A DNA stretch of 64,000 nt from Bacteroidota bacterium. GTDB lineage: Bacteria > Bacteroidota > Bacteroidia > Palsa-965. Shown here one piece after another: positions 1-57,825 of the stretch. The translations under genes and the position numbers were made by a program. The stretch spans positions 124,001 through 188,000 of the forward strand of contig JADBYT010000008.1 of the NCBI GenBank assembly GCA_020402865.1, read 5' to 3'. Under the pieces are notes generated by a model that was not told the DNA's origin, did not search any database, and saw nothing but the letters and a program-made list of their open reading frames with translations. The number at the start of each line of letters is the position of its first letter. Position 1 is the first letter of the stretch.

Positions 1-1
1 T

Positions 2-358
2 GCCGCCGGCGGTGTGCCGCTTATGATTGCCGTAAACTGGTGGATGACAGCCGTGTGCGCCTTTGCCATTGCCGCACGCATAAGCAGCCACACCTGGGTG
101 CGCGCACTGCTGGGCGCCGCCCTCATGACTTTTCTCGACGCGCTGATTGAGCCTATGGCCACACCGCTCAATTTCTGGTATTTCGAGGGCGGTCTGGCGC
201 CGCTGCGCAACTACATGGCCTGGTTCGGTATGGGCTTTTTTCTGCAGCTTATGGGCATTACGCTGGGTGTAAATCCGCGCAATCCGCTTGCTGTGGCCGT
301 ATTTTGCCTTCAGGCCCTGCTTTTTATTGTACTCAATGCCGTGAACATTTTTAGCTGA
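2..358 (+). CDS. Carotenoid biosynthesis protein, CruF/DUF422-like (3' part only)
   Basis: The reading frame is already open at base 2, so the gene begins before the window and only about 118 C-terminal residues are seen. They form a very hydrophobic, multi-span membrane protein. The stretch AVNWW near the left edge and the acidic FLDALIEPM segment inside a helix resemble the CruF/DUF422 family, whose members act as carotenoid 1',2'-hydratases or in related carotenoid steps. The call leans on context as well: crtZ follows 44 bases downstream and a lycopene cyclase domain gene follows that, all on the same strand. A GTG (14) and an ATG (23) exist in frame but would cut off most of the family domain, so neither is taken as the start. 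Substrate specificity cannot be judged from a fragment. Confidence 0.7.
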   Translation, partial: AAGGVPLMIAVNWWMTAVCAFAIAARISSHTWVRALLGAALMTFLDALIEPMATPLNFWYFEGGLAPLRNYMAWFGMGFFLQLMGITLGVNPRNPLAVAVFCLQALLFIVLNAVNIFS

Positions 359-402
359 AATCTGTTCATCTTTGTGGTAATTCCATTCCGCATTTACACC
401 AC

Positions 403-864
403 ATGAACATATTACTTAACATTGGCATTGTACTGGCTACGTTTTTCTTCATGGAATTCATGGCCTGGTTTACGCACAAGTTTGTGATGCACGGCTTTCT
501 CTGGTACCTCCACCGCGATCATCATCAGGGCAAGGAAGGCTGGTTCGAAAAAAACGATTCGTTCTTCCTCATCTTCGCCGTGCCCAGCGCATATTGTTTC
601 ATGACCGGCATCATGTACAATGATTTTCGTTTGTTCATCGGCATTGGCATTGCGCTTTACGGCTTGTGCTACTTCCTTGTTCACGACATCATCATTCACC
701 AGCGTTTCAAAATCTGGCGCAAGTGGGACAATAAATATGTGCTTGGCATCCGCCGCGCACATAAAATTCACCACAAGTATCTGGGCAAGGAAGACGGCGA
801 AAATTTCGGCATGCTCATCGTCCCCATGCGCTACTTCCGTCAGGGTTACAAAGAACAGGCCTGA
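403..864 (+). CDS. crtZ: Beta-carotene hydroxylase (fatty acid hydroxylase superfamily)
   Basis: This 153-residue integral membrane di-iron oxygenase should hydroxylate the beta-ionone rings of beta-carotene to give beta-cryptoxanthin and zeaxanthin. All histidine clusters of the family are visible: HKFVMH (25-30), HRDHH (37-41), HDIIIHQR (94-101) and HKIHH (120-124), set among hydrophobic helices. Length is normal for bacterial CrtZ. A near-consensus -7 box (CATCTTTG, 367-374) lies 28 bases before the ATG. The TGA stop overlaps the ATG of the lycopene cyclase gene (TGATG), so the two are probably translationally coupled. With the cyclase and the upstream CruF-like gene it indicates a yellow-orange hydroxylated carotenoid pathway. 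Confidence 0.93.
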   Translation: MNILLNIGIVLATFFFMEFMAWFTHKFVMHGFLWYLHRDHHQGKEGWFEKNDSFFLIFAVPSAYCFMTGIMYNDFRLFIGIGIALYGLCYFLVHDIIIHQRFKIWRKWDNKYVLGIRRAHKIHHKYLGKEDGENFGMLIVPMRYFRQGYKEQA

Positions 865-1559
865 TGAGTCCCAACCTCACCTACATCATGCTGCATGCGG
901 GCGCATTTACGTTTCCGTTTCTGCTCAGCTTCGATAAAAAAGTAGCATTCTGGCGCAGCTGGAAGTTTTTGTTTCCTGCAATATTAGTGGTAGCCGCACT
1001 GTTTGTAGCGTGGGATATTTATTTTACCAAACTCGGCGTGTGGGGTTTTACGCCGGAATATGTGCTTGGCTATTATCTGGTTAACCTTCCGCTCGAAGAA
1101 GTTCTTTTCTTCATTACCATTCCCTATTGCTGCATTTTTATTTACGCCTGTCTTGAAGCGTATATCAAGCGCGATTATTTTACCAATGTACACCGCTGGA
1201 TTACCGGAATGGTAATGCTCATTGCCTTCACACTCGGCTTTTTATATTTCGACCGTTACTACACTTCGTGGACGGGATTGATTTCGGGTGTGTTGCTGGC
1301 GTATTTGCTTTTTGTGGAAAAAGCAAAATGGATGGGGCGTTTCTGGATGAGTTATGTGGTGGTGCTGTTGCCGTTTTTTATCTGCAACGGCATACTTACT
1401 TCAAAGCCGGTAGTGTGGTATAATGATGCGGAGAATCTGGGCATCAGAATGTGGACCATTCCGGCCGATGATTTGTTGTATAATCTGATTATGCTGCTTG
1501 GCGTAACGTGGATTTTTGAGCGGCTGCGTACACGCTGGAAAACCTCAAGTGCAGCTTAG
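864..1559 (+). CDS. Lycopene cyclase domain-containing protein (fused CrtYc/CrtYd type)
   Basis: This 231-residue protein has about seven predicted membrane spans. It carries the heterodimeric-type lycopene beta-cyclase repeat twice. The first half has the signature PLEEVLFF (76-83). The second has a related acidic motif in a helix, IPADDLLYN, near residues 195-205. In actinobacteria the halves are separate CrtYc and CrtYd proteins; Bacteroidota and archaea often have the fused form seen here. The expected reaction is cyclisation of lycopene ends to beta-carotene, the substrate of the upstream CrtZ. The start overlaps the crtZ stop by one base. The second-half motif reads ADD rather than the more common P-x-E-E/D, so the assignment rests on overall architecture and on the neighbour. 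Confidence 0.85.
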   Translation: MSPNLTYIMLHAGAFTFPFLLSFDKKVAFWRSWKFLFPAILVVAALFVAWDIYFTKLGVWGFTPEYVLGYYLVNLPLEEVLFFITIPYCCIFIYACLEAYIKRDYFTNVHRWITGMVMLIAFTLGFLYFDRYYTSWTGLISGVLLAYLLFVEKAKWMGRFWMSYVVVLLPFFICNGILTSKPVVWYNDAENLGIRMWTIPADDLLYNLIMLLGVTWIFERLRTRWKTSSAA

Positions 1560-1562
1560 TCT

Positions 1563-2126
1563 TCAGGTAAAGATCTCTTTTCCTCTTTTTTCAAGCTCCT
1601 GCTTTATTTCGTTGTAATAACGGATATAGTTTTTTCTGGCCTTTTTATGCACTTCGGCAATTACCTGTTCATAATGCAGGGCAAGTTTTCTGAGTTCTCC
1701 CTCCGATAATTTATATAACGGTGTATGAGCCAATTCTTCCGCACTCGGCTCGTAAGTTGAATTAAACGCTTCCTCTGCAATTGATTTAGCAGGCACGTTA
1801 TTGAGTTTTTTCAACACAAATTTATTTTTGGGCAATTCACTTAACCCAGTAAAATCAAGATATTCACTTACCACACTTTCATCCATAGTTATCGGCACCC
1901 GTTCGTTGTACAAACGGTCTGTACCGTCTTTTTTAACGCCCGATATCCAGTATTCCTCACCTGTTTCCACATCAAAATGATTGTATTTGTAGCCTTGTGT
2001 GCGCTGAAATACTTTTCCGTTGAAATAAACCGTCTGACGGCTTCGCGTAAAAAAGCCACGGCCAATCCACGCTTTACCCGAAAGTCCGCGCGATTTATTT
2101 TCCACATAAATCAGTTTACTTAGCAT
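1563..2126 (-). CDS. Conserved hypothetical protein of Bacteroidota
   Basis: A 187-residue soluble protein without signal peptide or membrane segment. A TTG three codons further upstream is possible, but ATG at 2126 gives the natural N-terminus MLSKLIYVE. The N-terminal half is beta-rich and contains YFNGKVFQR followed by DVETGEEYWISG, a pattern I associate with small Bacteroidota proteins of unknown function (sometimes mislabelled as DXP synthase in databases). The C-terminal 60 residues are a charged helix ending in EIKQELEKRGKEIFT. It converges on the carotenoid operon with only three bases between the stops. No catalytic motif is recognised and no function is proposed. Confidence 0.75.
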   Translation of the reverse strand: MLSKLIYVENKSRGLSGKAWIGRGFFTRSRQTVYFNGKVFQRTQGYKYNHFDVETGEEYWISGVKKDGTDRLYNERVPITMDESVVSEYLDFTGLSELPKNKFVLKKLNNVPAKSIAEEAFNSTYEPSAEELAHTPLYKLSEGELRKLALHYEQVIAEVHKKARKNYIRYYNEIKQELEKRGKEIFT

Positions 2127-2237
2127 AACTAACAATACTAAACATCGCTAAATTTAATTCTTTCACATCAACTATTTTATACCTTAACGGTTGTTAATGT
2201 GTTGAAATAACTCAATGTTAAATCCGATTCGATTTCC

Positions 2238-3668
2238 ATGAGCCACAAACAACCCGGGTTATTCTTTCTGTTGATACTGGCTTTTGCTTCATTCTGTATG
2301 CGGGTAAAGGCGCAATCGCCCTGCACGGTGCCGCCAAACTGTATTGTGAATAACGAAGTAGGTGCACCGCAACCCAATGGCGATATGAACTCAACCCCGG
2401 GAAATTTGGTAAACGGCTGGTATGTATCGCACGGCACGCCAACACTGTTTGGCAACGACTGTCCGACGAGTACAAATAATTGCTCCATCTGGATGTGGTC
2501 GTATTCGGGTGGTGGCGAGGGTGTGTTTACCTGCTACAATTTTCAGGCGGGGCAAACGTATGAGCTTTGTTTTTGGGTACGCAATACCAATGCCATTACC
2601 GGCAACGGACATTTGCAAATCTGGATGACCAATAATTTTTCCGAGTACCAGAATGGTTTTTCATTGCCGCCGCAAAATGTAACCGGGCAATTGATTGATT
2701 CGTCGTTCATCAACAACCAGAACTGGGTGCAGTTAAGTTTTACCATTACACCCACAGCCAATTTCAACACGCTGCTCATTTATCCCTTCATGTCGGGGCC
2801 GCCCATCAATAACCTGCAATACGAATTGCAAATTGATGATATCCGCATTACGCCACCCGGTTCGGGCGGTGGCAATTACACTATAAGCAGCACACAAAAT
2901 CCCATTGACTGGTGTGGCAGCACGCAGCTATGTGTAGCCAATTTGCCGCAGGGTGCCACCGTAAACTGGCAGCCGGCATTTGCACTTAACACCGTTACCG
3001 GCAACTGTGTAACCGCCGCACCATGCAGCACCACTACATACACTGCTATTGTAAATGCCCCTGCGGGTTGCCCCAATGCCTGTTCGCCGCAAAGTGCGGG
3101 CGATACACTGAGCATTACGGTTAATGCCTTACAGCCACAGGTGCAGCTTGTTACTACCGGCCCTGCGCAATGTGGCGATCCGGTGTGGCTTACGGCCAGT
3201 TTACCACAAAGCAACTGCGTGCTTAACGGCCAGTGGCTGTTGCCTAACGGATCTGTTGTGAGCGGCGATTCGCTGCTGGTAGTGGCTTCTGGTGTTGCAC
3301 CAAACAGCAACTATCAGTATCAGCTTTTTTCGCCCGACAGTGCGTGCATTACATCGGGAGCATCCATCAATATTGACGCCGCGCTGAGCGAAGGCCCTGT
3401 TTACATTCCCAACACAATTACACCAAACGGCGACAACCTGAACGATTTATTTACTGCTTACAGCGCAGGCTTTTCGTATTTCAATCTGAAAATCTTCAAC
3501 CGCTGGGGAGAGCATATTTTCGAAACATCAGACCCTGCCACCGGCTGGAACGGCGCCTGCAACGGCAATGTGGTGCAGCAAGACACCTATGTGTATGTGG
3601 TCGAATATCAAACCAACTGTTCGCTCAGCCGCCGTAAAAAAACCGGTCATGTAAATATTATCCGATAA
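2238..3668 (+). CDS. Secreted protein with gliding-motility-type C-terminal domain (T9SS type B cargo)
   Basis: A 476-residue exported protein. Residues 1-26 are a signal peptide (hydrophobic run LFFLLILAFASF, likely cleavage after VKA). Residues about 30-210 begin with N-GDMNSTPGNLVNGW and resemble a beta-sandwich lectin or carbohydrate-binding-like module. Residues 215-385 are Ig-like, with several cysteines probably forming disulfides. The last 90 residues are the gliding-motility-associated C-terminal domain: YIPNTITPNGDNLNDLF, then IFNRWGEHIFET and a closing GHVNIIR. That domain is known to direct export through the T9SS and surface retention. The gene stands alone between a convergent hypothetical and another cargo gene. 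The ligand is unknown. Confidence 0.88.
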   Translation: MSHKQPGLFFLLILAFASFCMRVKAQSPCTVPPNCIVNNEVGAPQPNGDMNSTPGNLVNGWYVSHGTPTLFGNDCPTSTNNCSIWMWSYSGGGEGVFTCYNFQAGQTYELCFWVRNTNAITGNGHLQIWMTNNFSEYQNGFSLPPQNVTGQLIDSSFINNQNWVQLSFTITPTANFNTLLIYPFMSGPPINNLQYELQIDDIRITPPGSGGGNYTISSTQNPIDWCGSTQLCVANLPQGATVNWQPAFALNTVTGNCVTAAPCSTTTYTAIVNAPAGCPNACSPQSAGDTLSITVNALQPQVQLVTTGPAQCGDPVWLTASLPQSNCVLNGQWLLPNGSVVSGDSLLVVASGVAPNSNYQYQLFSPDSACITSGASINIDAALSEGPVYIPNTITPNGDNLNDLFTAYSAGFSYFNLKIFNRWGEHIFETSDPATGWNGACNGNVVQQDTYVYVVEYQTNCSLSRRKKTGHVNIIR

Positions 3669-3735
3669 TTTGCAAATACTGACCACTTTTACCGCCACTT
3701 GATTTATTTTGCCATTTGCAGCATAAATTCAGGCT

Positions 3736-6237
3736 ATGAAAAAAATCGGGACAATTTTATCCGGCTGTTTTGTGATGCTGAATCTGGCAGCACAGGATTT
3801 CCGCCAGCAAATAGGAGTAAATGAGGGCGACAACTTTGCGCAAATCTGTGCAAAAGCTGATGCGCACTGGAGCCGTCAGGGCCCGGTAGCCACAGCCAAC
3901 AATGCGCCGCCGTTTACCGACAATGCTTATCATGCCTACCAGCGCTGGAAATGGTACTGGCACACCCGCCTCGACCAGAACGGCAATTTCCCTGATGTGG
4001 TGGCCGCACAGGCCGAAGCCGATGCCATGCGCAGCAACCAGCGGGTGGCTGTAAATCCGCCCTGGACATTCATTTCGCAAACCGTGGGCGATGGCGGCTA
4101 CAACGGCATGGGCCGCACCACCTGCATTGCCTTTCATCCTACCAATGCAAACACGTTTTTTGTGGGCGCTCCCATTGGCGGCCTCTGGAAAACAACCGAC
4201 GGCGGCCAGAGCTACACACCGCTCACCGATGCTTTGCCTTACGTAAGCGTTGGAAGCTGCCTTGTGGACCCTACCAATCCCAACACCCTTTACATTTCCG
4301 TAGGCGACCATCAGGGCTGGTGGAACTACAGCCTCGGCATTTACAAAAGTACCGACGGCGGCGCTACATGGAATGTAACCGGTTTAAACTGGCAGCTTTC
4401 GCAGGGGCGTGCTATTTCGGGCATGGTAATGGATCCGAATAATGCGCAGATCATCTATGCCGCCACCTCAAACGGCCTTTACAAAACCACCAATGGCGGC
4501 ACAAACTGGACTGTAGTGCGTGCCGGCTACTATTCGGATGTGGAAATGGAGCCGGGCACTTCAAACGTATATGCCGCCCTGCACGATTACTGGGGCTCAA
4601 GCGAAGTATTCCGCTCAACCGACGGCGGCGCCACATGGACACAACTCAGCAGCTTTGCGCAAAATTACAACTGGATTCGCATTGCTGTAACACCGGCCAA
4701 TGCGGCCATGCTGGCTGTACAGCTTTCTTCGGGAAACAAACCCCTGTACGTATCTTACAACTACGGCGCAAACCTCAACTACGTTTCAGACTGCCCCGAA
4801 ACCGACATCCTGCTTATTTCGCCCAACAACGCCAGCATTATATACTGCGGCGCCGTGTATGTGTATCAGTCAACCGATGGCGGCGCCAACTGGAACACGA
4901 AAAGCTACTGGTTCTACAACCCGCCCTATCCCGAAGTACATGCCGACCAGCGCAACGTGGCTTTTCACCCGCTCAATCCCAACATGATTTATTTCTGCAA
5001 CGATGGCGGCGTGTACAGCTACTCCGAAAGCGGCGATTCATTTACCGAACTTTCAAACGGCCTCCTTATCACGCAGTTTTACAAAATTGCGGCATCCGGC
5101 ACCAACGCACAACTCATTATTGGCGGCACACAGGACAACGGCGGCCGCCTACGCATGAACAACGGCCAGTGGCGTGCCACCAACGGCGGCGATGCCATGG
5201 AAGTAGCCATTGACCCGGTAAACAACAATACCATTTACACCACTTACATAAACGGCATTCTTTACCGTTCATACGATCAGTGGACCAACGACACCTACAA
5301 CGGAATAAGCGCAAACATACCCGGGGGCACACCAAACGGAAGCTGGGTAGCTCCTTACATGCTCGATCCATCAGACCATCTCACCCTTGTGGCCGGTTAC
5401 GACGATGTGTGGCAAACCACCGACCAGGGCAATACATGGACTGCGCTGAGCAGCAACATTGCCGGTGGCAATACGCTCGAATGCCTGATGATTTCGGCCT
5501 CCAACCCAAATATCATTTTTGTATCGGAAGGCGATAACCTTTACAAAACCACGAACCGGGGCGGAAGCTGGTCAACCGTTTCAGTACCCGGCACGGCGCC
5601 CATTACCTCCATTACCATACACCCGGCCAATGCACAGGAAGTATGGATTACGCGAGGCGGTTATGTAAGTACGTCTAAAGTATTTCATTCCATAAACGGC
5701 GGTACCACGTGGCAAAACTGGAGTACGGGCCTGCCCAACGTGGCGGTGAATACGTTCATTTATCAGCAGGGCCCGGGTGGCGTGGTGTATGTGGGCACGG
5801 ATGCCGGCGTGTTTGCCCGCGATACGCTGAGTAATACGTGGATGGCATGGGGTACGGGGTTACCCAAAACATCGGTAACGGATCTCGAAATTTATTACCC
5901 CACCATGAAACTCCGCGCCGGAACGTATGGACGTGGTATCTGGGAAGCGGACCTTTCCACACCGCTTGGCACAGCGCAGCAGCCTGTTCAAACCAATACG
6001 TTTACTGTATATCCCAATCCGGCAAACGGCGAAATTACCATCACGCTGCCACAGGAAAACACCAAACCGGCAGAAATAAGTATTTGGAATGCGCAGGGCG
6101 AATTGGTACTGCTAACGCAGGCCGCTGCCGGTGTGCAGCGCAGCACACTCGACCTGAGCACACTGGCTAAAGGTGTGTACATGGTGCGCGTGCAACAGCA
6201 AAACGAAGTAAACGTTCAAAAACTCGTACTGTATTAA
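3736..6237 (+). CDS. Secreted BNR/sortilin-type beta-propeller protein with T9SS type A sorting domain
   Basis: An 833-residue exported protein. After a signal peptide ending near residue 19 (LNLAAQ) it has a long run of Asp-box/BNR repeats such as YKSTDGGATW, YKTTNGGTNW, FRSTDGGATW and YQSTDGGANW, spread over residues 130-700. This is the fold of sialidase-like and Vps10/sortilin-like propellers. The sialidase arginine triad is not evident, so glycosidase activity should not be assumed. The C-terminal 75 residues carry the type A T9SS signal (VYPNPANGEITITLP, then GVYMVRVQ and KLVLY), normally removed on the cell surface. A strong terminator hairpin follows the stop. Likely a secreted or surface-anchored binding protein. 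Confidence 0.88.
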   Translation: MKKIGTILSGCFVMLNLAAQDFRQQIGVNEGDNFAQICAKADAHWSRQGPVATANNAPPFTDNAYHAYQRWKWYWHTRLDQNGNFPDVVAAQAEADAMRSNQRVAVNPPWTFISQTVGDGGYNGMGRTTCIAFHPTNANTFFVGAPIGGLWKTTDGGQSYTPLTDALPYVSVGSCLVDPTNPNTLYISVGDHQGWWNYSLGIYKSTDGGATWNVTGLNWQLSQGRAISGMVMDPNNAQIIYAATSNGLYKTTNGGTNWTVVRAGYYSDVEMEPGTSNVYAALHDYWGSSEVFRSTDGGATWTQLSSFAQNYNWIRIAVTPANAAMLAVQLSSGNKPLYVSYNYGANLNYVSDCPETDILLISPNNASIIYCGAVYVYQSTDGGANWNTKSYWFYNPPYPEVHADQRNVAFHPLNPNMIYFCNDGGVYSYSESGDSFTELSNGLLITQFYKIAASGTNAQLIIGGTQDNGGRLRMNNGQWRATNGGDAMEVAIDPVNNNTIYTTYINGILYRSYDQWTNDTYNGISANIPGGTPNGSWVAPYMLDPSDHLTLVAGYDDVWQTTDQGNTWTALSSNIAGGNTLECLMISASNPNIIFVSEGDNLYKTTNRGGSWSTVSVPGTAPITSITIHPANAQEVWITRGGYVSTSKVFHSINGGTTWQNWSTGLPNVAVNTFIYQQGPGGVVYVGTDAGVFARDTLSNTWMAWGTGLPKTSVTDLEIYYPTMKLRAGTYGRGIWEADLSTPLGTAQQPVQTNTFTVYPNPANGEITITLPQENTKPAEISIWNAQGELVLLTQAAAGVQRSTLDLSTLAKGVYMVRVQQQNEVNVQKLVLY

Positions 6238-6260
6238 TTTAACCAGCCCGAAAGGCCCGA

Positions 6261-6302
6261 ATGCCCGTTGTCAGCACTGCAACTGACAACGGGCATTTTT
6301 TC
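6261..6302 (+). terminator. Intrinsic terminator after the BNR protein gene
   Basis: A perfect 14-bp stem (ATGCCCGTTGTCAG paired with CTGACAACGGGCAT) with an 8-base loop is followed by six or more T. It lies 23 bases past the stop of the upstream gene and isolates it from the peptidase gene. Confidence 0.88.
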
Positions 6303-6339
6303 ATGATCAATACAGGAAGGAGATATGCACGTTGCGGCT

Positions 6340-6347
6340 TATATTTG
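6340..6347 (+). promoter_or_regulatory. Bacteroidota -7 box TATATTTG before the M20 peptidase gene
   Basis: An exact match to TAnnTTTG lies four bases before the ATG at 6352 and inside the sequence that would be coding if the upstream ATG at 6325 were used. It supports ATG 6352 with a leaderless or nearly leaderless transcript. Confidence 0.6.
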
Positions 6348-6351
6348 TGGC

Positions 6352-7740
6352 ATGTCAACCCAACGCGATTATATCCAGCAGCATAAAGACCGTTTTCTGA
6401 ACGAGCTTTTCGAATTATTACGTATTCCTTCGGTGAGTGCCGATCCGAAATACGCGCCTGATGTGCAACGCACGGCTGAAGCGGTAAAAACCAGTTTGCT
6501 TGCCGCAGGTGCCGACAGTGCAGAAATCATTCCCACGCCCGGCCACCCGATTGTGTATGGCGAGAAGCGCATGGGCGATAACCTGCCCACTGTGCTTGTG
6601 TATGGCCACTATGATGTGCAGCCGCCCGATCCGCTGGATCTCTGGACATCGCCGCCGTTTGAGCCGGTAATCCGCAAAACCGACAAGCACCCCGACGGAG
6701 CTATTTTCGCACGTGGTTCGTGCGATGATAAAGGACAAATGTACATGCACGTAAAAGCACTGGAAGTGATGCTGAAAACCGGCACACTTCCCTGCAACGT
6801 GAAATTTATGATTGAGGGTGAAGAGGAAGTTGGCTCGGCCAACCTCGGCGATTTCCTGCGTGCACACAAGGAAAAGCTCAAAGCCGATGTGATTCTGATT
6901 TCCGACACATCAATCATTGCCAACGATACGCCTTCTATTGACGTGGGCCTGCGCGGGCTTTCGTACATGGAAGTGGAAGTAACCGGCCCCAACCGCGATC
7001 TGCACTCAGGCGTGTATGGCGGTGCGGTGGCAAACCCGGTAAACATTCTTTGCAAAATGATTGCTTCGCTGCACGATGAAAACAACCGTGTAACCATTCC
7101 GGGTTTTTACGACAATGTGGCTGAGCTGAGTGCCGATGAACGCGCCGAACTTAACCGTGCGCCGTTTGATCTGGAAGAATACAAACGCGATCTCGACATT
7201 AACGACATACACGGCGAGAAAGGCTATACAACCATTGAACGCACCGGCATTCGTCCTACGCTTGACGTAAACGGCATTTGGGGCGGCTACACCGGCGAAG
7301 GTGCTAAAACCGTACTGCCTTCAAAAGCCTACGCCAAAATTTCGATGCGTCTGGTGCCCGATCAAACCTCGAAAGAAATTTCCGACAAGTTTGCCGCGCA
7401 TTTCCGCAGCATCGCTCCGGCCGGTGTGAAAGTGAATGTGTCGTATCACCACGGCGGCGAGCCGGTGGTGGTTTCCACCAACTCCAATGCCTATCGCGCA
7501 GCCAGTGCGGCCATGGAAGAAGCCTACGGCAAAAAGCCGGTGCCCACGCGTGGTGGTGGCAGCATTCCCATTGTGGCCCTCTTCAAAAGCGTGCTCGGCC
7601 TCGATTCTATCCTCTTCGGATTTGGTCTTGATTCAGACGCGCTGCACTCGCCCAATGAACATTACGGCGTGTTCAATTACCTCAAAGGCATTGAAACCAT
7701 TCCGCTGTTTTACAAAAATTATGTAAACAGCAGCAAGTAA
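6352..7740 (+). CDS. M20/M25/M40 family dipeptidase
   Basis: A 462-residue cytoplasmic zinc peptidase of the CNDP/PepV-like group, expected to cleave dipeptides or other small amide substrates. The metal-site motifs are all present: GHYDVQP (His and Asp ligand region), ARGSCDDKG (bridging Asp), EGEEEVGS (catalytic Glu and ligand Glu), ISDTS (Asp) and a final His in DALHSPNEH. The central dimerisation or lid domain is in place (GLSYMEVEVTGPNRDLHSG). An ATG at 6325 has a Shine-Dalgarno-like AAGGAG before it, but the exact -7 box between the two ATGs argues for 6352 as the start. It is transcribed alone between two terminators. The exact substrate cannot be told from sequence. Confidence 0.93.
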   Translation: MSTQRDYIQQHKDRFLNELFELLRIPSVSADPKYAPDVQRTAEAVKTSLLAAGADSAEIIPTPGHPIVYGEKRMGDNLPTVLVYGHYDVQPPDPLDLWTSPPFEPVIRKTDKHPDGAIFARGSCDDKGQMYMHVKALEVMLKTGTLPCNVKFMIEGEEEVGSANLGDFLRAHKEKLKADVILISDTSIIANDTPSIDVGLRGLSYMEVEVTGPNRDLHSGVYGGAVANPVNILCKMIASLHDENNRVTIPGFYDNVAELSADERAELNRAPFDLEEYKRDLDINDIHGEKGYTTIERTGIRPTLDVNGIWGGYTGEGAKTVLPSKAYAKISMRLVPDQTSKEISDKFAAHFRSIAPAGVKVNVSYHHGGEPVVVSTNSNAYRAASAAMEEAYGKKPVPTRGGGSIPIVALFKSVLGLDSILFGFGLDSDALHSPNEHYGVFNYLKGIETIPLFYKNYVNSSK

Positions 7741-7761
7741 TTGCATTCATTAACACTATCG

Positions 7762-7800
7762 AAACCGGCACAGGTACTATCTTGTGCCGGTTTTCGTTTT
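7762..7800 (+). terminator. Intrinsic terminator after the M20 dipeptidase gene
   Basis: An 11-bp stem (AAACCGGCACA with TGTGCCGGTTT), a 10-base loop and a T-rich tail (TTTTCGTTTT) sit 21 bases after the stop codon and just before the start of the LEA14-like gene. Confidence 0.8.
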
Positions 7801-7816
7801 CACTAAAATACCAGTC

Positions 7817-8302
7817 ATGAAAATTGTACGTCGCTTTTCACTGCTGTGGCTTCTTCCACTTGTCTTCACCCTCAGCGGCTGTGGCCTGAAACCTATTGTG
7901 CCCAAAGGCATCGAAGGCATCAAGTTTTTGAAACTTGATCCGATTCAGGGCGTGGTTATTCTCGATCTGGGAATGAAAATCGACAACCCGAACGGCATTG
8001 CCTTTACCCTGTTTGGCTCGGAACTTGAAATAAAAGTGGGTGGAGTTGATCTGGGAAAAGTGACAATTAATGAGAAAGTTAAAATTAAGCGCAAAACCGA
8101 AGACGTGTATCACGTAAAAGTAAATGCAAAAGTAGCTGATGTAATACGCAGCATCCCGGCGCTCATTAAGATAATTGCACAGAAGCAGGCTAATGTGGAG
8201 GTAAAAGGATGGATACGCGCGGGTGCTTTAGGATTGAGAAAGACCTTCCCGGTTGAACTGAAACAGGAACAGGTCCCTGCGTCTGATCATCAGAAGAAGT
8301 GA
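7817..8302 (+). CDS. LEA14-like (WHy domain) lipoprotein
   Basis: A 161-residue lipoprotein. ATG 7817 gives a compact signal peptide MKIVRRFSLLWLL with the lipobox LSGC, so Cys21 should be lipidated. The mature part matches the LEA type 2/WHy beta-sandwich: FLKLDPIQGVVILDLGMKI, then DNPNGIAFTLFGSELEI with the typical N-P-N-x-x-x-F-x-L feature, and a later helical strand (VADVIRSIPALI). Such proteins are stress-associated in plants and of unclear role in bacteria. The last 50 bases, encoding LKQEQVPASDHQKK and the stop, recur at 10472-10521 with four mismatches. The AT-rich two-gene insertion therefore starts right at the 3' end of this gene, which may have received its present tail from the inserted element. 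Confidence 0.85.
   Translation: MKIVRRFSLLWLLPLVFTLSGCGLKPIVPKGIEGIKFLKLDPIQGVVILDLGMKIDNPNGIAFTLFGSELEIKVGGVDLGKVTINEKVKIKRKTEDVYHVKVNAKVADVIRSIPALIKIIAQKQANVEVKGWIRAGALGLRKTFPVELKQEQVPASDHQKK
8253..8302 (+). repeat. Left copy of 50-bp direct repeat bounding an AT-rich island
   Basis: This sequence is the 3' end of the LEA14-like gene including its stop codon. It matches 10472-10521 at 46 of 50 positions in the same orientation. A duplicated gene 3' end on both sides of a foreign-looking block is the usual footprint of site-specific integration into that gene end (attL-like). Confidence 0.85.
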
Positions 8303-8339
8303 GATGTGGAGCTGTCTGAATGGGTTTACCTTGAACTGA

Positions 8340-9176
8340 TTATTTCTTCTTGCCTTTTTTTATGGACTTTTTTTGTTTGGATTCTGCTAAGTAATTTTCG
8401 TTAGTAATAACTTTTTGTCCGGTTTTTAGCTCCAGATCACGCCTTGCCTTTCCGGCAACTGATCCGCCTTCATTGGCTACAATTCGATTTTCGGCAAATC
8501 CTTTGGGATTTCTTGTTTTTACAATAGCTGTTGTAGAGGCTTCACCCAACATTGAAAAAATCAGTTCAAGATCATTCATGTGATCCCGGAGATTTTCAGA
8601 CTTCAATCCTTTTACTTTCTTATACTCAGAAGGAGTCAAGCCAAATGTTGCTTTCGAAATTTCAGCGGTTAGTATTGCATATTCTATTTGTTCTCTAACG
8701 CCCCTGTTTTTCCATTCTTCAGTAAGTTCTTCACGAATGGCTATGCTCCGCATTCGTTTTTCTATCCAAGCGTCGGAATAGCCTTTAAGTTTATATAATT
8801 CTCTGGTTCGTTGTGTCGCCAGTTCAGGGTTCTCAATTTCATCTAACCGGTCAGCACCAACTTGTGCCAGCCAAAGTTTAAATGGCTCAGCTTTGGGTGA
8901 CGGAATAGATTGAATGATTCTTAAAAGACCTTGAGCATGAGCACAATTCAGTTTCTGTTTACCACCAGCTGTGCTTACAGGAAGGGGGGTGACAAGTTGT
9001 CCCCACCCTTGAGAAAGCAACTCGTCTCTTTTGCGCATTTTTTTAATGTAATCCGCTGGATTAGGTGTATCGGTGAGAATACTCACAACATCAGCAACAA
9101 CGAAATACCATTTCTGATCAGATTCGTTCCAAACTGTTCTGATTTGTTTGCTTTCAAATAATTTAATCGAATTCAT
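8340..9176 (-). CDS. Bro-N domain protein, DinD-like
   Basis: A 278-residue soluble protein. Residues about 5-110 form the Bro-N DNA-binding fold (IRTVWNESDQKWYFVVADVV, then DYIKKMRKRDEL and the LNCAHAQGLLRIIQSIPSP segment). Residues 150-275 match the DinD-type tail, with VREQIEYAILTAEISKATFG, SENLRDHMNDLELIFSMLGE and EGGSVAGKARRDLELKTGQK. E. coli DinD is SOS-induced and inhibits RecA; Bro proteins are common in phages, plasmids and defence islands. The C-terminus is a lysine-rich tail (KKSIKKGKKK). The gene is AT-rich compared with the host genes, lies in the direct-repeat-bounded block and follows the HEPN gene on the same strand by 69 bases, so both may be one transcript. Its role here is inferred, not shown. 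Confidence 0.88.
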   Translation of the reverse strand: MNSIKLFESKQIRTVWNESDQKWYFVVADVVSILTDTPNPADYIKKMRKRDELLSQGWGQLVTPLPVSTAGGKQKLNCAHAQGLLRIIQSIPSPKAEPFKLWLAQVGADRLDEIENPELATQRTRELYKLKGYSDAWIEKRMRSIAIREELTEEWKNRGVREQIEYAILTAEISKATFGLTPSEYKKVKGLKSENLRDHMNDLELIFSMLGEASTTAIVKTRNPKGFAENRIVANEGGSVAGKARRDLELKTGQKVITNENYLAESKQKKSIKKGKKK

Positions 9177-9245
9177 ACTTTTTCTTTTTAAGTCAAACTC
9201 TATCAGTAAATGAAAATATTTGGTGTTATATTACTCTAAAGCTGC

Positions 9246-10322
9246 TCAAACCGATATATTATTTGCTCCTTTTAGTAACCAATTAGATAAACTTAGCCTC
9301 GCAAGTTGCATTGACTCATTATAAGTTGTGTATTGTTTATCCGCATTTACAGATTCTCCCCAGTCAATTTCCTCATCGCCTAAAAGCAAGACACCTGCAT
9401 GAACAATTTTTGACCTAAGATCATAGATTTTATTATACTTTTCTATTGATTTAGATGTATCTGAAACATAAGTCTTCAAAAACTCTTTGAATTTTGTTTT
9501 AATTCCCCAAATAGGCCTTTGACATTTAGAACAAGTGAATGGCGAAGTTTTTATTGTTTGACAGTCATTACATTCAAATTCTATTCCTTTATTTTTGCTT
9601 TTGAATTCATAATTCACGATTGTTTCGATAGCTGAAACAAAGGATAGGAAAGACAAACTCTTCATCCTGTCTTTAATTTCTATACCATTACAAATAAGAT
9701 GAATGACGGAATTTGTAACTTTTTTTCTACTATTATCTAAATTAAAATACTTGTCAACTGATTGACAAATTGTGTTCGGAAAATTTATCTCTATACTTCT
9801 ATCATCACTTGGAACACGTCGATAGTATTCACTATGTGCAATCAACTTTGCATTAGGAGATTGTTGCTCTGAAAAATCGGTAATGCGTAAATCATCCGCA
9901 ATACTCGGATAGTAAAACTTAGGGAAAAATGTCTGACTTGATGCTCTTTTAAAGTCTTCTCTCTCATTTTCGCTCAATTCATGGCTTGGTAAAGCTATAC
10001 CCCATTTAAATTCACTTTCTTGGTTGACAAAAAATCTATGATTTGTCAATACCGACAATAATCGCAATAACCGATTTAACTGATTAGTTTTTTGAGTACT
10101 TTCAAGGAGCCAAGGCGATAATTCTTGTAACTCATCAGGAAGTTTCACTTCAGTCACTTCATCAACATAATATTCTATGACCAATGGAAAATCACTACAG
10201 TATGGAGAGACTGGAGAATTTTTAAATTCACAAGGATAAATTTGGAAATAATCACCAAATTTTAATTGCGTTTTGAGTTGCGATTTACTGAAGACAATAC
10301 TTCTACAGATTTTCCTATTCAT
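9246..10322 (-). CDS. HEPN (ApeA-like) protein with embedded zinc ribbon, putative defence RNase
   Basis: A 358-residue soluble protein, strikingly AT-rich. Residues 1-200 are a mixed alpha/beta region I cannot assign to a family. Residues about 205-350 look like an ApeA-type HEPN helical domain: a first helix SLSFLSFVSAIETIVNYE (222-239), then two CxxC pairs (C251/C254 and C264/C267) making a zinc ribbon, then KFKEFLKTYV, and a final helix with the RNase signature R-x4-H (R303 and H308 in RSKIVHAG). HEPN proteins with this motif are commonly metal-independent RNases in abortive infection or toxin systems. ApeA itself is a known single-gene anti-phage protein, but here the N-terminal domain differs from anything I recognise. 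A -7-like TATATTCG lies 32 bases upstream. Function is inferred from the motif and the island context. Confidence 0.7.
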   Translation of the reverse strand: MNRKICRSIVFSKSQLKTQLKFGDYFQIYPCEFKNSPVSPYCSDFPLVIEYYVDEVTEVKLPDELQELSPWLLESTQKTNQLNRLLRLLSVLTNHRFFVNQESEFKWGIALPSHELSENEREDFKRASSQTFFPKFYYPSIADDLRITDFSEQQSPNAKLIAHSEYYRRVPSDDRSIEINFPNTICQSVDKYFNLDNSRKKVTNSVIHLICNGIEIKDRMKSLSFLSFVSAIETIVNYEFKSKNKGIEFECNDCQTIKTSPFTCSKCQRPIWGIKTKFKEFLKTYVSDTSKSIEKYNKIYDLRSKIVHAGVLLLGDEEIDWGESVNADKQYTTYNESMQLARLSLSNWLLKGANNISV

Positions 10323-10471
10323 AATAAAACACTTTGATTTCTTTCAATTTATTTCGAATATACCCAACAAACTAAAAAAACGCCACTTAGAACAACTAAA
10401 ACACTGATAGACAATACCTAAAACAAACAAGTCAGCGGCTTTCTGGCTTAAAAAAATCACTCTAATTCTGT
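10323..10471. other. AT-rich non-coding stretch upstream of the HEPN gene
   Basis: This is the right-hand end of the AT-rich island between the HEPN start codon and the right direct repeat. It holds A-rich runs and the possible promoter described separately. No open frame with family similarity is seen, and there is no integrase or transposase fragment. Confidence 0.6.
10355..10362 (-). promoter_or_regulatory. Possible -7 box TATATTCG for the HEPN gene
   Basis: On the minus strand TATATTCG (one change from TAnnTTTG) lies 32 bases before the HEPN start codon in an AT-rich leader. The same octamer precedes the glycosyltransferase at 48882 and the PpiD-like gene at 61142, which suggests a tolerated variant. 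Confidence 0.4.
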
Positions 10472-10521
10472 TTGAACTGAAACAGGAACAGGTGCCTGCA
10501 TCTGATCAGCAGAAGAAGTAA
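10472..10521 (+). repeat. Right copy of 50-bp direct repeat (orphan 3' end of LEA14-like gene)
   Basis: It encodes LKQEQVPASDQQKK and a TAA stop without any start or upstream gene body, which makes it a displaced gene end. It matches 8253-8302 at 46 of 50 bases. Beyond it the normal composition of the host returns immediately. Confidence 0.85.
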
Positions 10522-10525
10522 TATC

Positions 10526-10628
10526 CCGGTGGCTTCGATAAACTCAGCCACCTTGAGCAGTAACGGAGGCTGAGCCTGTCGAAGCCACCGGTAACAATGC
10601 CGGAGGCTGAGCTTGTCGAAGCCACCGG
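10526..10628. repeat. REP-like palindromic element, three copies
   Basis: Three related 27-28 bp units carry the core GGCTGAGCCTGTCGAAGCC. One is in reverse orientation (10526-10552) and two are forward (10564-10591 and 10601-10628, 27 of 28 bases identical). The first and second units can pair as a large hairpin. Elements with this core are widespread intergenic repeats. They lie directly next to the right end of the AT-rich island and stop just before the promoter of the ABC exporter gene. Confidence 0.85.
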
Positions 10629-10637
10629 CATTCCGAT

Positions 10638-10645
10638 TATCTTTG
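10638..10645 (+). promoter_or_regulatory. -7 box TATCTTTG of the ABC exporter gene
   Basis: Exact TAnnTTTG match, six bases before ATG 10652. This spacing again implies a leaderless or almost leaderless message and decides against the GTG/ATG-like starts further upstream. Confidence 0.65.
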
Positions 10646-10651
10646 CTTCCG

Positions 10652-12511
10652 ATGAAAAAATTCTTCGGTGTACTGAAGTATGTGGATGGTTACTGGCGTA
10701 ATGCCGGCATGAATATCTTCTTCAACATTCTTTCGGTAATATTCAATTTGCTTTCGCTGCTTACGATTATGCCGCTGCTGGATCTTTTGTTTCAGGGTGG
10801 TGATGCGCGTTTGGCGGAAGTGGCGGCGGCAGGTGCACCTGAAATCACATCGCCCAAAAGCCTTGTGGCGCGTGTAAATTACGAGCTGGCCGAGTATATT
10901 ACCCGTGCAGCCGATATGCCTGCGGCCAAAATGCAGGCGCTCATTTACATTTGTATTGCGGCAGTAATTTTCATTTTCTTTAAAAGCCTTTTCCGCTACC
11001 TGGCCATGTATTCGCTGGCCACCATCCGCAACGGCGTGGTGCGCGATTTGCGCAATAAAATGTACGACAAGGCCCTGCGCCTGCCGCTGAGCTATTACAG
11101 CAACGAACGCAAAGGCGACCTGATAAGCCGCATGACTGCAGACGTACAGGAAATTGAGTGGAGCATTATGAGTTCACTCGAAATGATTTTCCGCGAGCCT
11201 GTTACCATTATCGGCTTTCTTATTTACCTGATCTGGGCCAGCCCCGAACTTACCTTGTTTGTGCTGGCGGCCACGCCGGTGGTGGGCGGTTTGCTGGCTA
11301 TTGTAGCCAAAAGTTTGCGAAAAACTTCGCACAAGGCAAAAGCCAAACTCGGACTGCTGCTTTCGCTTATGGAAGAAATGCTGGGCGGGCTGCGCATTAT
11401 CAAAGGCTTTAACGCGGGTAAAAAAGTAGGCGATCGTTTCAAAAACGAAAATGACGAGTACACCCGCATCATGGTGCGTAATTACCGCCGCATTGATCTG
11501 GCTTCGCCGCTGAGCGAGTTTCTGATTGTGTGCGTAATGACCGTGATTATGTACTACGGCGGCCGCCTTGTGCTGTATGGCGATGGTACGCTGCCGGCAG
11601 CGCAGTTTTTCGGCTACGTGGTGGTGTTTTCGCAACTTATTACGCCGGTGCGGCAGTTTTCGCAGGCTTATAATAACGTGCAGAAAGGCCTTGCCTCGGC
11701 CGACCGTATAAACGCCGTGCTGGATGCCGAAGAAACCATCAGCGACCCGCCGCAGCCAGTTCCGTTGCAGGCTTTTGAACAAGCCATTGAGTACCGCAAT
11801 GTATCGTTTGCCTACACGCGTGGCGATGACGGATATGCCCTGCGTAACATTGATTTAACAGTACAAAAAGGCAAAACTATTGCGCTGGTGGGGCAATCAG
11901 GATCAGGCAAAACCACACTGGCTGATCTGCTGCCGCGCTTCTACGATGTAACCGAAGGCGAAGTACTGATTGACGGCCAGAACATCCGCAATTTCCGCCT
12001 GCACGATTTGCGCGCACTCATGGGCATTGTATCGCAGGAGTCGATACTCTTTAACGATACGGTGTACAACAACATCGCCTTTGGTGTGGAAAATGCCACG
12101 CAGGAAGAGGTTGAAGCCGCCGCCCGTGTAGCCAATGCGCACGATTTTATTACCGCCATGCCCGATGGCTACCAGACCAACATTGGCGACAGAGGCAGCA
12201 AAATGTCGGGCGGGCAGCGGCAACGAATTGCCATTGCGCGCGCCGTACTCAAAAATCCGCCCCTGCTCATACTCGATGAGGCCACCTCGGCGCTTGATAC
12301 AAGCTCGGAGCGGCTGGTGCAGGATGCCCTGAACAACCTGATGCGCAACCGCACCTCACTCATCATTGCGCACCGCCTGAGTACCATACAGCATGCAGAT
12401 GAGATTGTGGTACTCCAACACGGAAAGATCATCGAGCGCGGCAGCCATGCACAACTTCTTGAACAACACGGAGCCTATAAAAAGCTCTACGACATGCAGG
12501 TTTTTGTATAA
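10652..12511 (+). CDS. MsbA-like ABC exporter (fused transmembrane and ATPase domains)
   Basis: A 619-residue half-transporter that should work as a homodimer in the inner membrane. Residues about 20-330 form the six-helix ABC exporter domain, including the long cytoplasmic loop with RMTADVQEIEWSI and the coupling region. The C-terminal ATPase has Walker A GQSGSGKTT (about residue 414), signature SGGQRQR (about 519), Walker B LLILDEATS (about 538) and the switch His in AHRLST (about 573). In Bacteroidota this type is usually annotated as a lipid A or lipid exporter (MsbA group), fitting the LptC and KdsB genes elsewhere in the window, but peptide or drug export cannot be excluded. The gene stands alone after the REP elements. 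Confidence 0.92.
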   Translation: MKKFFGVLKYVDGYWRNAGMNIFFNILSVIFNLLSLLTIMPLLDLLFQGGDARLAEVAAAGAPEITSPKSLVARVNYELAEYITRAADMPAAKMQALIYICIAAVIFIFFKSLFRYLAMYSLATIRNGVVRDLRNKMYDKALRLPLSYYSNERKGDLISRMTADVQEIEWSIMSSLEMIFREPVTIIGFLIYLIWASPELTLFVLAATPVVGGLLAIVAKSLRKTSHKAKAKLGLLLSLMEEMLGGLRIIKGFNAGKKVGDRFKNENDEYTRIMVRNYRRIDLASPLSEFLIVCVMTVIMYYGGRLVLYGDGTLPAAQFFGYVVVFSQLITPVRQFSQAYNNVQKGLASADRINAVLDAEETISDPPQPVPLQAFEQAIEYRNVSFAYTRGDDGYALRNIDLTVQKGKTIALVGQSGSGKTTLADLLPRFYDVTEGEVLIDGQNIRNFRLHDLRALMGIVSQESILFNDTVYNNIAFGVENATQEEVEAAARVANAHDFITAMPDGYQTNIGDRGSKMSGGQRQRIAIARAVLKNPPLLILDEATSALDTSSERLVQDALNNLMRNRTSLIIAHRLSTIQHADEIVVLQHGKIIERGSHAQLLEQHGAYKKLYDMQVFV

Positions 12512-48882: not shown

Positions 48883-49253
48883 TGGCCTCAGATACGAATA
48901 TACAGTGTTGCAGGATGTGAAAAAAAGAGAATAAGAAGCAAAACCTGTGGTTGCAGCAAATAACCACCTGTCCCGCCATCCGCTATACGCCGGCAGCATA
49001 CAGCCCGGAATACATTTTACAGCCGGGGTGCCGCTGCTGTCGGGGCTACAGAAATAACTTCCGTGTTCCATAACACCACCTGCTCCCCCGCCCCCCGCCT
49101 GGTGAACACGCTCGCAGCATCATCCCGTAAAAAAACACCCGCATCATGCCTCAAACATCAGCTGGCAGCGGCGTTGCAACTTTTTGCCAAACACCGCAGC
49201 CGGAGTAACGCTCGTAGCGTTTAAGACCTCGCAGAGTTGCTTAACTTTATACA
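48883..49253. other. Intergenic region between divergent glycosyltransferase and hydrolase genes
   Basis: About 370 bases. It holds the minus-strand promoter-like octamer described separately, a C-rich stretch (about 49078-49100), and a small palindrome AACGCT-CGT-AGCGTT (49207-49221) that continues as TTAAGACCTCGCAGAG and looks like a dispersed intergenic repeat. A TAACTTTA (49242-49249) just before ATG 49254 may be the weak -7 box of the hydrolase gene. No gene is supported. Confidence 0.55.
48895..48902 (-). promoter_or_regulatory. Possible -7 box TATATTCG of the glycosyltransferase pair
   Basis: Minus-strand TATATTCG lies 12 bases before ATG 48882, one mismatch from TAnnTTTG. It also argues against the longer open frame upstream. 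Confidence 0.45.
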
Positions 49254-56952: not shown

Positions 56953-57498
56953 ATGACCCTGCCCGGCATCAAGCTCTCCGCCCTGCTCTACGCGGCCCGC
57001 ATTATTATCGGCTGCCTCATCACCTGGTGGTCGCTGTTTTACCTTACCGATACCAAAAAAATCTGGGCCATCATTTCGGTCATCATCGTAAGTGAGCCTG
57101 ATTTTACAAGCATCCGCCAGAGCATGGTATCGCGCATCATCAACACTATTACGGGTTGTGTGCTGGGGCTGGCTTTTATAGCCGTTTTCGGGCTTAATTT
57201 CTGGTCTATGATTGGTGCGGTGGCTGCTTCGGTGCTGGTGGCTGTTTCCTTCCCCAATTATCCCTCAAGCTGGAAACTGGCACCCGTTACGGTTATCATC
57301 ATCATGATGCCCGTTTTGCCCGATGATTTTACGTGGGACGACTCGTTGCTCACCGCGCTCATGCGCACCGGCGAGGTGCTTTACGGCAGTTTGGTTGCGT
57401 TTGTGCTGGGCTGGCTGTTTACCGAGTTTTTTAAAAAACGGTTCCCGTTGTTTGTGCTGGAGGATGAGGAGAAGGAGAAAAAGGGCGAGAATGAGTGA
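56953..57498 (+). CDS. FUSC-like inner membrane protein
   Basis: A 181-residue membrane protein starting at ATG 56953, seven bases after an exact -7 box (an upstream ATG at 56878 is not supported). It has four to five helices: ALLYAARIIIGCLITWWSLF, IWAIISVIIVSE, IINTITGCVLGLAFIAVFG, MIGAVAASVLVAVSFPN and LYGSLVAFVLGWLFTEFF, with the hallmark SEPDFTSIRQSMVSRIINT near residue 50 and a charged C-terminus (DEEKEKKGEN). This is the aromatic acid exporter/FUSC-type fold, in its short form. Larger members export hydroxybenzoates or other aromatic acids. Substrate not identifiable here. Monocistronic, between the interrupted lipoprotein gene and the palindromic element. Confidence 0.8.
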   Translation: MTLPGIKLSALLYAARIIIGCLITWWSLFYLTDTKKIWAIISVIIVSEPDFTSIRQSMVSRIINTITGCVLGLAFIAVFGLNFWSMIGAVAASVLVAVSFPNYPSSWKLAPVTVIIIMMPVLPDDFTWDDSLLTALMRTGEVLYGSLVAFVLGWLFTEFFKKRFPLFVLEDEEKEKKGENE

Positions 57499-57561
57499 TT
57501 GAAGGCGTAGGAGCGAACCATCAGTGCATTTCCAAACCGTTCGGCTCGCGCTTTCCACGCC

Positions 57562-57666
57562 AATCCGGCAGCCGCAAAAACCATCTGTTATCGCTAAACT
57601 TTCCGAGAGTTATAAACTCTCGGAAAGTTTAGGGAATTTGATTTTGGTTTTTGCGGCTGCCGGATT
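57562..57666. repeat. 105-bp compound nested palindrome
   Basis: Outer arms of 22 bp are perfect inverted repeats (57562-57583 and 57645-57666, core AATCCGGCAGCCGC). Inside them lies a second perfect inverted repeat of 18 bp (57594-57611 and 57615-57632, core CTAAACTTTCCGAG) with a 3-base loop. The element starts about 60 bases after the FUSC-like gene and ends about 90 bases before the tRNA gene. It has no coding capacity. It could be a MITE- or REP-like element, or a compound transcription terminator. Confidence 0.92.
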
Positions 57667-57709
57667 TCTGTTACAATCGCGGCTATGGATTCAAACCGTT
57701 CAGTGCCAT

Positions 57710-57745
57710 AAAAAAAATCGCCCGATCAAAAATGATCGGGCGATT
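57710..57745 (-). terminator. Intrinsic terminator of tRNA-Phe
   Basis: On the minus strand a 13-bp perfect stem (AATCGCCCGATCA with TGATCGGGCGATT), a 4-base loop and an adjacent run of T follow the tRNA gene after 7 bases. Confidence 0.9.
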
Positions 57746-57752
57746 AACCGTG

Positions 57753-57825
57753 TGGTTCGAGTCAGAATCGAACTGACGACACAAGGATTTTCAGTCCTTT
57801 GCTCTACCAACTGAGCTATCGAACC
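57753..57825 (-). tRNA. tRNA-Phe (GAA)
   Basis: A 73-base tRNA on the minus strand. The acceptor stem pairs GGTTCGA with TCGAACC and the discriminator base is A. The D-arm is AGCTCAGTTGGTAGAGC, the anticodon stem AAGGA/TCCTT with loop CTGAAAA (anticodon GAA), and the T-arm has the GTTCGATTC loop sequence. CCA is not encoded. A terminator follows directly. The gene has no mobile element attached, but the nested palindrome lies 87 bases beyond its 3' end. Confidence 0.97.

Follow-up and report, generated by a model that had tools for sequence, protein, structure and literature searches.

The nested palindrome at positions 57562-57666 lies within a compound element: judged from its sequence, the whole feature consists of a diverged Flavo-1-like repeat with a REP-like palindrome inside it. 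We consider it probable that this compound of two dispersed repeats, Flavo-1-like on the outside and REP-like on the inside, is a mobile or high-turnover hairpin that acts as DNA. Flavo-1 is an "sRNA" family of Bacteroidota that has been catalogued as a small RNA since 2010 and has lacked an explanation. The RNA motif is Rfam RF01705, of Weinberg et al. 2010 (PMC2864571), and the review PMC9029176 places it among the most abundant sRNAs.

Structure and immediate surroundings of the element

The whole 64,000-nt stretch of DNA that was analyzed is referred to here as the window. A sequence-only reading had described a perfect 22-bp inverted repeat enclosing a perfect 18-bp one with a 3-base loop, and this description proved exact at the coordinates given in Table 1, the inner arms (57594-57611 and 57615-57632, 18 bp each) being perfectly complementary around the loop ATA. 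Folded with RNA parameters, positions 57545-57685 gave -80.1 kcal/mol, compared to -33.6 ± 3.3 kcal/mol for 200 dinucleotide shuffles (z = -14.2). When the window was shuffled 100 times, the exact 20-mer arm was never matched by chance. A scan of the 340-kb contig that contains the window (arms of at least 15 bp, loops of 3 to 8 nt) yielded 18 palindromes in total, and none had arms longer than the 21 bp of the present one, which shares this rank when one mismatch is tolerated.

The nested palindrome belongs to the hairpin of a larger repeat, the tip of which is lengthened in this copy and holds the second palindrome. The end points of this repeat, 57510 and 57716, were set by eye from sibling copies. 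Its 5' conserved end (TTTTATTGCACC-n-ACGGTTTGAAT type) is on the high-coordinate side and its 3' conserved end (GGTTCGCTCC type) on the low-coordinate side, and the sequences of the small hairpin at the 3' end recur at the ends of sibling copies.

Table 1. Features of the element and its surroundings (positions in the window)
Feature	Position	Strand	Remarks
Flavo-1-like dispersed repeat, whole extent	~57510-57716	-	~205 bp; same end sequences at sibling copies elsewhere in the genome
Small hairpin at 3' end of repeat	57510-57547	-	57510-57518 pairs with 57539-57547; read from the sequence
Flavo-1 core hairpin (Rfam RF01705)	57540-57688	-	All 76 model positions; 35.9 bits versus curated 42
Outer arm, left	57562-57583	.	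22 bp, perfect
Inner palindrome	57594-57632	.	Arms of 18 bp, loop of 3 nt; belongs to a dispersed family that has 15-bp arms and the 3-nt loop in common
Outer arm, right	57645-57666	.	22 bp, perfect; pairs with 57562-57583
Terminator-like hairpin of tRNA-Phe gene	57716-57745	-	Arms of 13 bp and a loop of 4 nt, with a minus-strand T run behind; distinct from the element
tRNA-Phe (GAA)	57752-57825	-
Second Flavo-1 copy in the window	48965-49048	-	Short tip, without the long nested stem; 38.8 bits with RF01705 (<42), 48.1 bits with R1 (model built here)

That the element is an ordinary transcription terminator, serving either the tRNA or the gene that ends at 57498, is in our view highly improbable. 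It does begin only about 12 bp past the stop codon of that gene, and its hairpin is highly stable. However, the tRNA already possesses a hairpin of its own (57716-57745) between itself and the element, copies of this repeat are scattered over dozens of places and lie in either orientation, and inspection of the element's sequence did not reveal the combination of a G+C-rich hairpin with a T run right behind it that marks an intrinsic terminator, there being no T run directly after the hairpin on either strand. As a terminator of tRNA-Phe in particular, the element was rejected because that gene has a separate one.

The tRNA gene had also been proposed as an insertion site. tRNA-Phe was found immediately upstream of coaX in four relatives (G001, G005, G002, and G010), none of which carries the element there, while the remaining relatives either showed no tRNA-Phe near coaX or had a different arrangement (G004); the other copies examined lie between protein genes. 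Since its own terminator intervenes and the element is absent in 4/4 syntenic relatives, tRNA-Phe is a neighbor and not a target, and tRNA-targeted insertion was discarded.

A dispersed repeat related to Flavo-1

When positions 57499-57712 were compared by BLAST to the genome from which the window comes (4.9 Mb, 49 contigs), many places matched through the element ends and thus beyond the palindromes alone. A pattern for one element end, GGAGCGAACC, had 38 matches in this genome versus 4 for the reversed-pattern control, and a pattern for the other end, CCGCTGCAATCRGGGCTA, had 41 versus 6 with up to 3 mismatches. In the sibling copies, the ends and the hairpin base are conserved and the hairpin tip is almost wholly different, being long and self-complementary in the class of copies to which that of the window belongs. 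With ends and hairpin base found at many places, the element is a copy of a dispersed repeat and not a single local structure, and its absence beside tRNA-Phe and coaX in all four relatives that have this arrangement shows that it does not occupy one fixed location throughout the group.

In a permissive Rfam scan, the copies matched RF01705 (Flavo-1, type sRNA). The window copy covered the full-length consensus hairpin, model positions 1-76 including the internal loops, with a score of 35.9 bits when 46 kb were searched (E = 0.00045), and because this is below the gathering score of 42, a scan at gathering level had reported the tRNA alone. A model that we built, R1, matched the window copy at 57540-57685 with 20.2 bits. 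Among the best 150 of 637 candidates scored in the same genome, at least 39 matched RF01705 at an E value of ≤10, at least 11 of them above the cutoff of 42; the best sibling among the matches listed reached 58.7 bits, and the window copy itself is outside that list. With a score under 42 and siblings that pass, we therefore regard the window copy, by sequence comparison, as divergent from but related to Flavo-1: its siblings provide the link, and its score does not make it a member. It shares with the Flavo-1 motif the same core, a UAGCCC..GAUUG.AG.GGAAA / ..UUG.AGCGGAAAGC.GGA hairpin, but adds conserved ends beyond the 76-nt model and the 105-nt nested stem with its second palindrome.

The family is patchily distributed. 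Among 99 genomes (98 relatives and the window's own), at least 37 had an RF01705 match at an E value of ≤0.001 and at least 22 had one above the cutoff. Counts in relatives are lower bounds, no more than 42 candidates having been scored per genome: in genomes of the same genus they ranged from 0 (G003) to at least 24 (G001) among the candidates scored, and a distant genome, G075, had at least 42 copies.

Several arrangements of copies were seen along the way. At the end of contig C1 of the window's genome, a gene 3' end is repeated in tandem together with a Flavo-1 copy, and the same sequence terminates contig C10; the probable cause is a tandem duplication at which the assembly broke off. Contig C39 (positions 1-12000) has four Flavo-1 copies within 9 kb, three of them at a spacing of about 1.6 to 2.1 kb and with similar stems, which suggests that a gene unit was duplicated along with its Flavo-1. 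In genome G111, one intergenic region has two copies in opposite orientation, of which one has a stem that looks like a complete A-hairpin-T terminator while the base of the other is enlarged and seemingly disrupted.

A second dispersed repeat in the tip

The palindrome in the tip is one of a family, 33 bp in length, with 15-bp arms, a 3-nt loop, and an invariant CGAG...CTCG. A pattern search of the genome gave 30 pattern matches, corresponding to 15 places, one of which (C26:59220) was left out since it matches the pattern without being a palindrome. Adding the window copy and two copies found by BLAST (C2:464919 and C10:170216), we compared 17 copies, the pattern being non-exhaustive. Eleven of the 17 are located inside Flavo-1 hairpins, one of these (C1:259223) lacking half its base, and six are outside (C1:58053, C15:186109, C15:186989, C2:461170, C13:2333, and C2:464919, the last one counted as outside on account of a sequence context without a Flavo-1 base). 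The idea of one palindromic repeat inside another therefore holds, the inner one being a repeat in its own right with copies outside Flavo-1 as well.

The arms of this family are nearly perfect, with 252 Watson-Crick pairs, 1 G-T, and 2 mismatches among 255 cells. In 14 of the 17 copies, the Watson-Crick run ends with pair 14, 15, or 16, whereas in the other three (the window copy, C2:461170, and C10:170216) it extends to pair 17 or 18. Several copies, both inside and outside Flavo-1, have A-rich outer arms, for example, AAAACAAAAAC / GTTTTTGTTTT.

Presence and absence at orthologous sites

For 20 kb of G075 that contain three Flavo-1 copies, 40 congeners served as a comparison, and junctions were taken from thirteen of them. 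The element was present in 4 of 11 relatives examined at site B, in 2 of 8 at site C, and in the one relative examined at site A. In the adjoining 80 kb, G075 and G113 share a long stem at one site, where G104 has a quite different, short stem and G106 has no element, and at another site the element was present in G075 and G128 and absent from G113 and G106. A difference of stems at a shared site may represent replacement of the stem or a second insertion there. No transposition event was seen directly in these comparisons, and neither a target duplication nor exact ends were readable, as occupied and empty orthologous sites are too diverged. As to the traits of a MITE (terminal inverted repeats and a target-site duplication), no long terminal inverted repeat was seen in the aligned copies. 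Where several species have the element behind the same gene, long retention with loss could, against mobility, also be the reason.

Pairing in the hairpin base is almost free of G-T

We aligned 98 copies, including that of the window, with a model built here (alignment A2) and scored nine basal pairs. With the qualification that A2 was fitted to these nine pairs and that its cells lack independence, the 872 cells comprised 862 Watson-Crick pairs, 6 G-T, 1 A-C, and 3 others (99.5% paired), and 236 cells were changed on both sides versus 6 on one. One of the basal pairs displays all four Watson-Crick forms (34, 31, 22, and 10 copies). For comparison, 30 tRNA loci of the same genome (from 43 matches, the best 150 of 197 candidates having been scored) had 39 G-U among 507 paired cells (7.7%) versus 6 G-T among 868 for Flavo-1, giving a Fisher P value of 3e-12 if cells are treated as independent, which they are not. 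The ratio of one-sided to double changes, 6:236 for Flavo-1 versus 19:222 for tRNA (P = 0.008), was a weaker contrast than the G-U share. In RNA minimum-energy folds of the copies of the window's genome, helices of at least 8 bp had G-U in 12 of 390 pairs, compared to 14.7% in folds of shuffled copies; this is low and yet above zero, which speaks against a DNA reading, as does the poor folding of the tip in several short-tip copies.

Compensatory evolution in RNA usually proceeds via G-U. The near absence of G-U therefore indicates either pairing that matters in DNA or paired changes that are made in one step. The former is nevertheless open to two objections, namely, that the absence of G-T from the base could reflect isolated 2-bp helices, which would be equally strict in RNA, and that the covariation may in part be due to quasi-palindrome correction during replication and not to selection.

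A reading built on one-step changes would have the palindromes kept perfect by a mutational process, template switching that mends quasi-palindromes in the course of replication, with little or no function, in an old and slowly lost family. The double changes without intermediates agree with it, as do arms that were seen to remain perfect though their sequence turns over completely, and the sister genomes G127 and G105 have the same stem at the same site, differing by one compensated G-C / T-A pair. It leaves unexplained, however, the conserved unpaired G.A, the conserved ends, and the high copy number in some genomes, and the 33-bp inner unit retains its CGAG...CTCG, beyond what mere symmetry would demand. 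We hold it to be quite unlikely.

At the conserved unpaired positions, G.A was found at columns 12/205 of A2 in 98 of 98 copies, A.G at columns 14/203 in 96 of the 96 copies with letters on both sides, and a G.A-type opposition at columns 17/200 in 97 of 98; columns 9/208 had A.G in 89 of 98 copies and were swapped to G.A in the other 9. The four oppositions are unpaired in Rfam consensus scoring. Because these mismatches are invariant and 9/208 swaps between A.G and G.A, whereas the other strand would show C.T, the pattern suggests a fold of one particular strand.

Orientation and gene context

Genes around 54 elements (31 of the window's genome, 23 of G075) were assigned with a simple ORF caller, and both neighbors could be assigned for 47 elements. 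Seventeen of these lie between convergent genes and 10 between divergent genes, and those among co-directional genes are split evenly, 10 in sense and 10 in antisense. Assigned sides were gene 3' ends in 32 of 56 cases in the window's genome and in 27 of 45 cases in G075.

These counts bear on a second reading, that Flavo-1 is a structured RNA acting in or near mRNAs, for example, in 3'-end protection or protein binding, and that the nested stem is an expanded tip. The Rfam type "Gene; sRNA" agrees with it, as do the one-strand conservation of non-Watson-Crick G.A positions and the many copies close behind stop codons that the above shares of gene 3' ends reflect. In addition, according to the part of PMC9723704 that deals with Flavo-1, several 5' transcribed regions coincide with Flavo-1 matches. 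The same part of this source, on the other hand, has many matches outside such regions and finds matches alike in sense and antisense, in agreement with the 10:10 split observed here; as far as it goes, we count it as unsupportive of Flavo-1 RNA expression in Flavobacterium psychrophilum. With no orientation bias, nearly no G-U, and a patchy distribution among close relatives also standing against an RNA, we rate this reading as unlikely, and Flavo-1's designation as an sRNA as doubtful. Taken together, G-T depletion, turnover, and the lack of strand bias favor a role of Flavo-1 as a DNA hairpin.

A candidate DNA hairpin element

In structure, the outer repeat has a conserved base, in which invariant G.A mismatches separate short Watson-Crick helices, underneath a highly variable, self-complementary tip, and the inner repeat is a REP-like 33-bp palindrome placed in the lengthened tip. 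The mobile or high-turnover DNA hairpin that we favor would operate as follows. One strand would fold while single-stranded, as it may on the lagging-strand template; the conserved base would be recognized by a protein; and the repeat, whether mobile or merely of high turnover, would undergo copying or loss, with an enzyme, possibly of the HUH/Y1 type, moving it. The tip would be free to change provided that its self-complementarity stays.

A bolder version, which we put forward tentatively and would not expect to hold in full, is that Flavo-1 is no RNA at all, that it is a single-stranded-DNA hairpin element with a G.A-studded base read by an enzyme, and that its tip is a slot taking other palindromes, resulting in matryoshka-like nesting. 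If the G-T depletion holds family-wide, it would provide a simple sequence test to tell hairpins selected as RNA from those acting as DNA, and Flavo-1 would shift from the RNA catalogue to that of mobile DNA. The nesting, for its part, offers a natural archive of how one palindrome enters the tip of another.

Integron attC sites have an imperfectly paired conserved base, unpaired bases, and a variable terminal structure within 60 to 150 nt. The Flavo-1-like hairpin may be likened to this layout, by resemblance alone; unlike attC sites, the Flavo-1-like copies are single, stand between unrelated genes, and had no R-box cores or cassette arrays that we noticed.

RAYT-like genes and REP-like features

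The sequence-only reading had also suggested a REP-associated or IS200-like transposase. Such genes are present; their distribution showed no link to Flavo-1, and their link to the inner palindrome is weak. The window's genome has three RAYT-like Y1 genes, all of which match NCBIfam NF047646, one above the cutoff. Y1/RAYT genes (PF01797) were found in 14 of 16 genomes picked for Flavo-1 and in 17 of 20 picked with one copy or none, so that across the 36 genomes they do not track Flavo-1. RAYT or IS200 as the mover of Flavo-1 is thus unsupported, such genes occurring in 31 of 36 genomes regardless of Flavo-1. Nine RAYT neighborhoods in other genomes included eight without a Flavo-1 match at an E value of ≤0.1 and one with two weak matches; in the window's genome, two of the three RAYT genes have Flavo-1 at distances of about 4 and 7.5 kb. 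A search of solved structures with one RAYT gave no relevant match.

Palindromes occur near all three RAYT genes, at a density on contig C8 of about one per 19 kb. Only that on C2 belongs to the inner family, the other two genes being near unrelated palindromes. The C2 palindrome (C2:461170) is 228 bp upstream of the RAYT start, yet its link to the gene is weak because it sits 8 bp behind the stop codon of another gene. The RAYT on C8 carries NHLH, WQ, and YIHQNP, which a section of PMC6006769 gives as signatures of RAYT subclass 2.6, a Bacteroidetes group; the RAYTs of this subclass are described there as flanked by "atypical secondary structures" with copies elsewhere.

As in the REP/REPIN and RAYT systems, in so far as they are outlined in portions of PMC3733652 and PMC6006769, short dispersed intergenic palindromes are found here together with RAYT-like genes. 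The inner family has the size and dispersal of a REP, namely, a 20- to 40-bp extragenic palindrome (33 bp, 17 places examined). It differs in copy number, about 17 to 18 copies having been found with a non-exhaustive pattern versus often >100 per genome for REPs, in the absence of GTAG or CGTC as a common tag in the flanks of the 17 copies, and in RAYT genes that are not clearly flanked.

The surroundings of the RAYT-like genes are themselves rich in repeats. Downstream of the one at the end of C19, a 20-bp inverted repeat (GGGCGCGAYGCATCGCGCCC) is followed by a tandem 19-bp unit (TAGATAAATCCCCGCGCCC) up to the contig end. Near the C2 gene, degenerate 11-bp tandem repeats (CCTAAACCCCG / CCTAAACTCTA) abut the palindrome, as if one arm had been multiplied. 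Between the C8 gene and recQ (C8:50950-51130) there are several nested palindromes with 3-nt loops, and nested palindromes similar to one of them (GCGGGAAGTTT..AAACTTTCTGC) are present at C6:62-66 kb.
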